From positions 1-27,776 of the IMG/VR virus record IMGVR_UViG_3300005830_000032: 27,776 nt of DNA; one strand, given 5' to 3'. Source of the DNA: a virus. A program made the translations under genes and the position numbers. Below, one piece after another: positions 15,341-27,622 of this stretch (its first letter is position 1; each line of letters begins with the position of its first letter). The notes under the pieces were generated by a model. It was not told where the DNA came from. It searched no databases and saw only the letters and a program-made list of their open reading frames with translations.

Positions 15341-15917
15341 TCAGGGACTCGATTGTCTTCTGGATCACGTCGGAGGGCGGTGTCGCCTCGGCGTATCGGG
15401 GGAAGAGTGCGCGCATCGGCACGGACTCGCCGGTGTCGTTCAGGACCACCTCGGCCCCGATGGCACACATGATCTCGGCCCACTGCTCCACGGCGTCACG
15501 GAAGCCGAGCTTGTCCTCGTCGTCCAGCACGCGCTCGGCGGCGTTGAGGGCCGTCTTCGTGTCGGTGAACAGCACCGCGTCGGACAGGACCTGGCGCGCG
15601 AGGTCACCCGAGGAGTTCTTGAGTTCCTCGATGTAGGCCTGGACGTGCTGAAGCTCCAGCAGCGCCTGGGCCTTGCGGTACGCCGTCTGGTTGCCGACCG
15701 GCGGCTTCTCCAGGTTGGCCTCGCCGTTGTTCAGCCGCGGGTACCACTGCTCGCTCTCCTCGTCGAACGCGAGGTAGGCACGGCGGTAGGCCTCGGGGGC
15801 GCCCCGCTCGCCGAATGCGACGTAGATGCGGACGAAGGCGAGTTCGCGCTCGTCCATCGCGTGGCGATTCGAGATGCGCCGCTTCAGCGTGTTCTGGGTA
15901 GCCATCTCTACTGCCAT
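15288..15917 (-). CDS. terS: Terminase small subunit
   Basis: This is a protein of about 209 residues with an N-terminal helix-turn-helix-like block typical of small terminases (RELAFVRIYVAFGERGAPEAYR, then VGNQTAYRKAQALLELQHVQ and AYIEEL). A helical oligomerisation region and a charged C-terminus follow. It recognises phage DNA and recruits the large subunit, whose gene it overlaps by 53 nt. The start is uncertain. The ATG at 15917 overlaps the previous gene's stop by 10 nt, another ATG lies at 15905 just after that stop, and a GTG lies at 15953. None has a clear ribosome site, so re-initiation after the repeat-protein gene is likely. Confidence 0.88.
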   Translation of the reverse strand: MAVEMATQNTLKRRISNRHAMDERELAFVRIYVAFGERGAPEAYRRAYLAFDEESEQWYPRLNNGEANLEKPPVGNQTAYRKAQALLELQHVQAYIEELKNSSGDLARQVLSDAVLFTDTKTALNAAERVLDDEDKLGFRDAVEQWAEIMCAIGAEVVLNDTGESVPMRALFPRYAEATPPSDVIQKTIESLNDYRDSLAAREAAAKQG

Positions 15918-16543
15918 CCAGTCTGTGGGTCGGAGTTGGGATCGTCGGTCCACGTCGATGCCGGGTCGCTCGTGGGTCGGTCGGTGAAGGTGGACACCGG
16001 GTCATTCGCTGGACGATCAGTCCAGCTGGAGGCCGGGTCAGAGACGGGCCTGTCGGACCAGGCGCTCACGGGGTCGGAGGAGGGCCGGTCAGTGTAGATC
16101 GCGCTTGCCTGGCCGCGCCCGCGGGCGAACAGCGATGGCATGGTGGCGTCGGCGCTGCCAGTGCGCGGCTCGACGACGGCGCCGGACGCGGAGCCGGTGA
16201 GGCTGGGTAGCGTGCCTGCCGCCTGGCAGGAGACGCCGAGGTCGCCCACCGCATCGCCGGTGAGACTGGGGATGGCGCCCGCCGCCTGGCCAAGCGCACC
16301 AATGTCGCCAGCAGCACTGCCAGTGAGCGAAGGTAGCGTGCCTGCGGCGGTGCCGATCACCCCAATGTCGCCAGCCGCGGAGCCGGTGAGGCTGGGCAGC
16401 GTCCCGGCGCCGGAGGTGGACACCGTGTCGGCGATGCCGAACGCGTAGTCCATCAGCGGTGCAGACCAGAGCGCGCTCTCCAACGAGATGCGCTGGTCTA
16501 GGAGCGGCGTGCGAAGCGCCTGTACGGCAGCTGCGGTAGTCAC
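15908..16543 (-). CDS. Repeat protein with two kinds of tandem repeat, probable virion protein
   Basis: This is a 211-residue protein with a GTG start supported by AAGGAG eight nt upstream. Residues 47-122 contain three full and one partial copy of a 21-residue unit of the form GTLPSLTGSAAGDIGxxGxA. Residues 150-209 contain five exact-length copies of a 12-residue unit, aromatic-T-D-R-P-x-S-D-P-x-S-x, and the protein ends WQ. The first 45 residues are a non-repetitive helix and turn. No enzyme motif is present. Repeats of this style are usual in extended or collagen-like fibres and surface adhesins, so an appendage or decoration role is plausible. Its position just before the terminase genes is unusual for a fibre. 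Confidence 0.8.
   Translation of the reverse strand: MTTAAAVQALRTPLLDQRISLESALWSAPLMDYAFGIADTVSTSGAGTLPSLTGSAAGDIGVIGTAAGTLPSLTGSAAGDIGALGQAAGAIPSLTGDAVGDLGVSCQAAGTLPSLTGSASGAVVEPRTGSADATMPSLFARGRGQASAIYTDRPSSDPVSAWSDRPVSDPASSWTDRPANDPVSTFTDRPTSDPASTWTDDPNSDPQTGWQ
15917..16096 (-). repeat. Five tandem 36-bp units encoding a 12-residue repeat
   Basis: The array is in frame. Read on the minus strand, each 36-bp unit encodes (Y/W/F)(T/S)DRPxSDPxSx. Units 1 to 4 are close to each other. Unit 5, next to the gene end, has diverged (WTDDPNSDPQTG). The length is exact with no indels, which points to duplication by slippage or unequal exchange under selection for the protein period. Confidence 0.9.
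16178..16405 (-). repeat. Tandem 63-bp units encoding a 21-residue repeat
   Basis: Three complete units (residues 47-67, 68-88, 89-109) and a partial fourth share PSLTG followed by a Gly/Asp/Ile segment. Unit 3 carries substitutions, including a cysteine (LGVSCQAA). The array precedes, and is unrelated in sequence to, the 12-residue array of the same gene. Confidence 0.88.
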
Positions 16544-25757: not shown

Positions 25758-25784
25758 ACACACACAACACACACACACACACAC
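25758..25784 (+). repeat. CA-dinucleotide microsatellite before the kinase-like gene
   Basis: Two AC runs (25758-25766 and 25767-25784) are broken by a single extra A and abut TGGAG, the ribosome site of the next gene. CA-rich leaders stay unpaired and can boost translation. The repeat is also prone to slippage. Confidence 0.9.
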
Positions 25785-25797
25785 TGGAGTTACTGAC

Positions 25798-26487
25798 ATG
25801 TTGACGATTGACAGCAAGCTGCCCAAATACTTCGACGCGAACGGTGCTGCGGCGGTGTACTGGCGCCTCGGCAAACACTTTGGGCTGAAGGCCTACGATA
25901 CCGAGGAAGCGCGCGACGAGAGCTACTCGCTCCAGCAGCTGCTGGCGCGGCACAGCGCGGCACCGGCGCTGGTGGGCCGGTTCAACGCGACCAATCCGGG
26001 CCACCGGTTTTGCTTGATCACCGAGCACGCGTCATCGCTCGGCTCGGACGTGCAGGACCAAAAGGTCTACATGAAGCTTCACCAGAAGCTGAAGAAGGCG
26101 GTGTTGCGCGTGTTCGATGCGGATTGGGCTGATGCGCACGCGGGTAACTGGGGCCTCATGGACGATGACTTGGAGCGCCCAGTGATCATCGACTTCTCGT
26201 GGCACTCGTTCGGGGTCCGCGCCAAGAGGGTCGCAAAGGAAGCGGCGCCGATTGCGACGGCGTGCCTCGACAAGCGGGAAATTGAGAACTTCATCAGCTT
26301 CGGGCTCGCCGACGCGGGCCTGCGCAAGCACGGGGTGCTCGCTGCCGACGCGCCTGCGCTGGTACAGGACCTTGTGGCGGCGGTGCCCGTGTTGCGGGCC
26401 GATCCGGTGATCGCACAATGCGTCAACCAAAAGGTGGTGATCCCTGCCGGGTGGGCCGAGGTCGCGCCGAAGCGAAGGCGCCGCTAG
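25798..26487 (+). CDS. Kinase-fold protein (phosphotransferase-like), early gene
   Basis: This is a 229-residue protein starting MLTIDSKLPKYFDANGAAAV, with TGGAG eight nt upstream. It has a plausible full set of protein-kinase-like motifs in order. A beta-hairpin leads to the lysine strand GLKAY (Lys 31), then a Glu-rich helix (EEARDESYSLQQLL, Glu 37 or 41). A hinge-like LITEH follows at 73-77. The catalytic loop is DAHAGNWG with Asp 112 and Asn 117, and the metal-binding IIDFS has Asp 132. The DxHxGN form resembles aminoglycoside-phosphotransferase and RIO-like kinases. The C-terminal lobe is helical and ends PKRRRR. Phage early kinases, such as T7 0.7, modify host proteins. A similar job here is inferred. 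Confidence 0.78.
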   Translation: MLTIDSKLPKYFDANGAAAVYWRLGKHFGLKAYDTEEARDESYSLQQLLARHSAAPALVGRFNATNPGHRFCLITEHASSLGSDVQDQKVYMKLHQKLKKAVLRVFDADWADAHAGNWGLMDDDLERPVIIDFSWHSFGVRAKRVAKEAAPIATACLDKREIENFISFGLADAGLRKHGVLAADAPALVQDLVAAVPVLRADPVIAQCVNQKVVIPAGWAEVAPKRRRR

Positions 26488-26992: not shown

Positions 26993-27622
26993 TTACCCAA
27001 GCTCCGCGCGAGCGAGCGGGCCCGGCTGGGCGATGCGGCGAGCACCGCGCGAGAGGTTGCACGGGGGGCACGCGAGGGCAAGGTTGCCTTCACAGTGTTC
27101 GCCGCCTACAGCCAGTGGCTGGAGGTGATCTAGGTGCGCAGTCGAGTCGATGGTGGCATCGCAGTGAAAGCACACGCCACTCTGGAGCCACATGAGCACG
27201 GCGCGAATGTCGGTGCGGACGGGCTCGACGGTGGCGCCCCTCTTGATGGCACGGCGCTTGGCCTTGAGCACGCGAATCTTGTCGGGGTTGGCCTCGCGGT
27301 AGGCGGCTTGCTTGGCGCGAATCTTGTCGGGGTTGGCGGCGCGGTAGGCGGCGTTCGTGGCGCGAACCTTGTCGGGGTTGGCAGCGTAGTAGGCGGCCTT
27401 CGCGGCGCGAAGCTTGTCAAGGTTGGCGGCGCGGTAGGTGGCCCTTGCGGCGCGAATCTTGTCGGGGTTGGCGGCGCTCCAGGCGGCTCGCTGGGCGTTG
27501 AGCTTCTCGCGGTTGGCGGCGCGGTAGGCACTCTTCCGGGCGAGAATCTTGTCACGGTTGGCGGCGCGGTAGGCGGCGTTCCTGACGCAAGCCTTCTCCC
27601 GACGCTCCTCCGCGGTCAACAT
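26993..27622 (-). CDS. HNH endonuclease with tandem N-terminal repeats
   Basis: This is a 209-residue protein starting MLTAEERREKACVRNAAYRA. Residues 17-121 are seven copies of a 15-residue unit, A-Y-x-A-A-N-P-D-K-I-R-A-x-x-A. The C-terminal domain is a zinc HNH nuclease: CFHC (Cys 151, 154), HLDHLQPL (163-170), GGEH (His 176), Asn 180 and CPPCNLSRG (Cys 185, 188). HNH enzymes cut DNA, either as homing enzymes or with terminases during packaging. The basic amphipathic repeats probably grip DNA. The ATG directly abuts the preceding TAG, with GAGGAA upstream. It lies far from the terminase genes, which favours a free-standing homing type. Confidence 0.88.
   Translation of the reverse strand: MLTAEERREKACVRNAAYRAANRDKILARKSAYRAANREKLNAQRAAWSAANPDKIRAARATYRAANLDKLRAAKAAYYAANPDKVRATNAAYRAANPDKIRAKQAAYREANPDKIRVLKAKRRAIKRGATVEPVRTDIRAVLMWLQSGVCFHCDATIDSTAHLDHLQPLAVGGEHCEGNLALACPPCNLSRGARRIAQPGPLARAELG
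27260..27574 (-). repeat. Seven tandem 45-bp units within the HNH gene
   Basis: Each unit encodes 15 residues of the form AYRAANPDKIRAxxA. On the plus strand the array appears as spaced copies of CTTGTCGGGGTTGGC. All units keep frame and length while the last three residues vary. This is a coding repeat, not a CRISPR array. Confidence 0.92.

Follow-up and report, generated by a model that had tools for sequence, protein, structure and literature searches.

A probable divergent kinase-like protein, outside described families, encoded at the right end of an IMG/VR virus contig

Genomic context of the proposed kinase-like gene

The window, that is the whole stretch of 27,776 bases analysed here, derives from an IMG/VR virus record (IMGVR_UViG_3300005830_000032) and has a GC content of 65%. 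Its minus strand encodes a major head protein, a portal, the terminase large subunit, an SU10-type adaptor, an internal virion protein and an endolysin, and its right end carries on the plus strand, in this order, a GP88 family gene, a DUF932 gene, an unknown gene and the ORF located at 25798..26487 (+). This last CDS, defined by its reading frame, its translation and its GC content by codon position, encodes a putative kinase-like protein of 229 aa (P0001). A GGAG ribosome-binding site recognised in the sequence (25786..25789, +) is situated 8 nt 5' of the ATG and immediately preceded by a CA repeat (about 25759-25784), while the GC values at the three codon positions (0.66/0.43/0.84) are similar to those of the neighbouring genes. 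Judged by this ribosome site and its neighbour-like codon bias, the ORF is a credible gene.

Several other features of the window are worth recording. An HNH endonuclease (26993-27622, -) lies antiparallel to the last plus-strand ORFs and is preceded by about seven 15-residue repeats of the AAYRAANPDKIRA type, organised as 45-nt units. Upstream of the terminase genes, the ORF at 15908-16543 (-) contains about four 21-residue repeats (AGTLPSLTGSAAGDIG) together with a TDRP-type repeat tail.

The initial annotation described the 229-aa product as early-expressed, a view that found no support, the sole promoter-like site in the 22-27.8 kb region being what is expected from shuffled sequences. The gene is carried by the strand opposite to the structural genes, a position that would suit early or middle expression and proves neither.

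An orphan protein in database searches

Extensive searches revealed no relatives of this protein. These included tblastn analyses of phages, using the whole protein, a 139-aa core or a 41-aa core, and of plasmids, using all 229 residues; no related locus was found in IMG/VR or in GTDB genomes. DNA-pattern searches with a fixed or variable spacing between DxHxGNWG and IDF, which also covered IMG/VR, identified no true relative. Family scans with Pfam, PHROGs, NCBIfam and PADLOC, as well as a sequence search of the PDB, returned nothing relevant and no kinase family. PHROGs 4301, 3809, 2828 and 15752, and the Pfam families ABC1 (PF03109) and APH (PF01636), gave no match with single-genome E-values up to 10. 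Searches with the neighbouring genes detected no syntenic relative of the locus, and a sister contig found via its terminase (L002, 81% identical) ends before reaching the kinase-like gene. At the sensitivity of the searches run, the 229-aa protein is an orphan.

A proposed catalytic-loop segment similar to that of phage kinase-like proteins

The proposal that this ORF encodes a kinase-fold protein was based on a small set of residues, and the translation confirmed K31, the loop D112-A-H-A-G-N117 and the motif I131-D132-F133-S134 at their stated positions. In PKA, the catalytic-loop residues are numbered D166 and N171. The same distance of five residues separates D112 from N117, kinase order and spacing are kept, and all three C-lobe catalytic residues (D112, N117 and D132) are retained. 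A loose signature (K..E..DxHxxN..xDF) is found in 0.35% of shuffles of the protein, a per-protein chance that has to be read in the context of the approximately 40 genes considered in the initial annotation, and for this reason the loose motif is merely suggestive. A stricter form (DxHxxNxG followed by a hydrophobic residue, D and F) occurs in about 2 per 100,000 shuffles, with the reservation that this pattern was written after the sequence had been seen.

Natural proteins with DxHxGNWG were gathered from viral contigs. Several of these belonged to PHROG 4301, one (L015) was a member of the T7 0.7 kinase family (8e-14), and HipA-type loops were also represented among the pattern matches (L005, L014 and L062). 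A test profile was built from nine phage relatives of the PHROG 4301 type, none of which has the DxHxGNWG motif. With this profile, the 25798-26487 ORF scored 13.3 bits (E 4e-4) and ranked first among the window ORFs, and none of 20,000 shuffles exceeded this value (best 12.7, next 8.8 bits); since the relatives were originally located via the protein's own motif, the motif-less profile lessens this bias but does not abolish it. Comparisons with hhalign gave a probability of 82.6% with the whole family profile; with the C-lobe half of this profile the probability was 90.9%, and the window ORFs ranking next did not exceed 2.6%. The match is confined to about residues 109-140, and runs past the searched motif into R-P-V-x-x-D-[FY]-x-x-H. 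Pairwise tblastn matches around residues 111-139 involved L039, L018, L015, L027 and L041, and the motif-found ORFs that were most similar outside the motif were the kinase-like ones (L039, L018, L015 and L027, by tblastn).

On the basis of the independent profile, hhalign and tblastn, residues 111-139 (26128..26214, +) are delimited as the segment proposed to contain the catalytic loop, D112-A-H-A-G-N117-W-G, as well as the metal site, I131-D132-F-S. The sequence around D112, N117 and D132 is similar to that of the catalytic loop and the metal-binding motif found in small kinase-like proteins of phages.

Proposed N-lobe, C-terminal tail and predicted structure

The N-terminal part of the protein gave a different picture. 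The codon of Lys31, the proposed ATP-binding (beta-3) lysine, is found at 25888..25890 (+) and aligns with the invariant Lys of the nine relatives, and Glu residues follow at positions 36, 37 and 41. The stretch G16-A-A-A-V-Y...G-L-K31 can be plausibly aligned with the glycine loop and Lys of the relatives, an agreement equalled by 7-8% of shuffles. No glycine-rich loop is recognisable, with just G16 before A-A-A-V-Y. The N-lobe profile of the relatives failed to recognise the N-lobe of the protein, and when the family profile was restricted to its N-lobe half the ORF ranked 66th of 110. Because of this failure and of the frequency of matching patterns among shuffles, the assignment of Lys31 and a helix-C Glu to a kinase N-lobe does not rise above chance and is tentative. 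The C-terminal tail (residues 140-229; 26215..26484, +) has no match and falls outside the coverage of all family members; it is helical in a low-confidence model, and the C-terminus is basic (KRRRR).

Structure prediction by AlphaFold2 from the single sequence was useless (pLDDT 33.6), and a model obtained with the nine remote relatives reached a pLDDT of 45 and a pTM of 0.32. The latter comprises strands 10-14, 18-22 and 28-33, with K31 inside the third, a helix at 45-51, a strand at 57-61, a helix at 86-98 and two strands (118-121 and 127-130) followed by helices. This order of elements is kinase-like (beta1-beta2-beta3(K31)-alphaC-beta4-helix-beta-beta-helices), with a confidence too low to count, and the nine relatives in the alignment may themselves impose it. 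Foldseek searches of this model against the PDB and BFVD returned no significant fold match; fragments of PIM1 and PRPK appeared at E values of 5-9 and were dismissed as noise.

Taken as a whole, the kinase-fold claim is supported for the catalytic loop and metal site by profile and pairwise matches, and lacks above-chance sequence support for the N-lobe. A kinase-like fold is probable, and a whole bilobal arrangement is plausible, the model neither establishing nor contradicting it. The contrary reading, an unrelated small phage protein in which a DAHAGNWG...IIDF stretch arose by chance, is unlikely without being negligible. The rate of the loose signature over the genes considered, the unrecognisable N-lobe and the lack of any significant fold or family match would all fit such an accident, but a 29-residue match to a motif-less profile that surpasses 20,000 shuffles and all other window ORFs, and that reaches beyond the searched motif into R-P-V-x-x-D-[FY]-x-x-H, argues against it.

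Comparison with known phage kinases and kinase-like proteins

Among the closest points of comparison are the members of PHROG 4301, which include Pseudomonas phage YuA gp39, PaMx11 gp73, the kinase-like protein of Pseudanabaena phage Pan1 and LAV_00062 of Sphingobium phage Lacusarx. A tblastn search with one member retrieved 90 phage records, mainly YuA-like Pseudomonas phages, in which automatic annotation had assigned the names hypothetical protein, kinase or protein kinase. In their alignment G, R, VxK, E, D, N and D are invariant and follow the order seen in kinases. Like these small phage proteins, the 229-aa product exhibits D-x-[HK]-x-x-N-[WF]-G and, after it, R-x-V-x-x-D-[FY]. In contrast, a clear glycine loop and VVKVE are present in PHROG 4301 members, which are usually 140-200 aa long and are devoid of the 90-aa C-terminal tail, whereas the 229-aa protein has GAAAVY and GLK in place of the invariant G-x-x-R and VxK and does not match the family model even with E up to 10. 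PHROG 4301 itself (L080, L078, L082 and others) is widespread and listed as of 'unknown function'; its invariant kinase residues are packed into only about 140 aa, in which the hinge is followed almost directly by the catalytic loop, as in a minimal kinase-like domain.

The T7 0.7 kinase and JSS1_004 (phrog_15752) share with the 229-aa protein a phage origin and kinase-type catalytic residues, and L015, a member of this family, carries DLHAGNWG. The initial annotation had noted no resemblance to T7 0.7, and at the sequence level this holds, the phrog_15752 model giving no match. The proteins also differ in size (229 aa, versus about 40 kDa), and, although the C-terminus is basic, there is no sign of the shutoff domain.

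The top-scoring local match was the kinase-like domain of L039 (8649-11288, -), with 44% over 36 residues and an identical N117-D132 spacing. It differs in that it is part of a phage ORF of 880 aa and has an N-lobe of its own (GAFSTAF...VKLT), and in having DGG where the 229-aa protein has DFS. Within this ORF, the domain is found near the N-terminus (GAFSTAF...VKLT...DDHDGNWG...VVIDGG). Another viral contig, L027 (8532-10159, -), harbours a tandem pair of adjacent kinase-like genes. Each of the two has a clear glycine loop, VVKF and DLHxGNWG...LDFG, and weak matches to the ABC1 and T7 0.7 families were obtained.

Catalytic loops of the DxHxxN type, or similar ones, also characterise the APH, Kdo-kinase, ABC1/UbiB and Bud32 branches as well as HipA-type kinases; the 229-aa protein has no family match with ABC1/UbiB, APH or HipA-type kinases.

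Possible activity and biological significance

The best explanation, put forward tentatively and at slightly less than an even chance, is that the gene product is an ATP-dependent phosphotransferase of compact and strongly diverged kinase-like fold, whose substrates are most likely proteins. That it is an active protein kinase, as suggested by the retention of D112, N117 and D132, is about equally balanced, leaning a little towards doubt. Such an enzyme would accommodate ATP between an N-lobe (strands near residues 10-33) and the C-lobe; K31 would hold the ATP phosphates and might itself be held by E41 or a neighbour. D112 would position the substrate hydroxyl, N117 and D132 would hold Mg2+, and the gamma-phosphate would be transferred to Ser, Thr or Tyr.

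An improbable alternative is an active kinase-like fold whose substrate is not a protein but a small molecule, a sugar, a nucleotide or a tRNA, a situation known from the APH, Kdo-kinase, ABC1/UbiB and Bud32 branches. APH and ABC1 kinases typically have a loop of the DxHxGN type, the pattern-mate L027 weakly matches ABC1 (7e-5), and the C-lobe is compact with no evident activation segment; yet the protein itself matched neither ABC1 nor APH in the single-genome comparison, and its closest annotated phage relatives are called protein kinases, if by automatic annotation only. Equally improbable is a kinase-like fold that does not phosphorylate, whether a partner-binding pseudokinase or an enzyme of other chemistry such as AMPylation, for which the missing glycine-rich loop, the N-lobe diverged beyond recognition and the existence of kinase-fold proteins with other chemistry, e.g. 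SelO, can be invoked, but which is at odds with the conservation of D112, N117 and D132.

By analogy with T7 0.7 and JSS1_004, the likelier guess is that the favoured divergent phosphotransferase would act on proteins, and on those of the host (for example RNA polymerase, RNases, translation factors or proteins of defence systems). The host proteins phosphorylated by T7 0.7 include RNase III (PMC4858673), JSS1_004 inactivates DndFGH and other defence proteins, and phosphorylation by T7-type phage kinases puts several bacterial defence systems out of action (PMC12345140). By analogy with T7-like phages, kinase targeting of host defences is thus a reasonable hypothesis. The most far-reaching version, in which an active kinase of an undescribed family, unrelated in sequence to T7 0.7, would serve an uncultured podovirus-like phage in phosphorylating proteins of host transcription, translation or defence, is rather unlikely. 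The gene probably adds a further divergent member to the kinase-like proteins of phages, outside described families.

T7-type phage kinases have been described as almost exclusive to Autographiviridae (PMC12345140), and small unstudied kinase-like genes, such as those of PHROG 4301, are carried by many other phages. The present gene is by itself a candidate only; if it did add another, unrelated kinase type, this would suggest a wider occurrence of kinase-based interference with the host.
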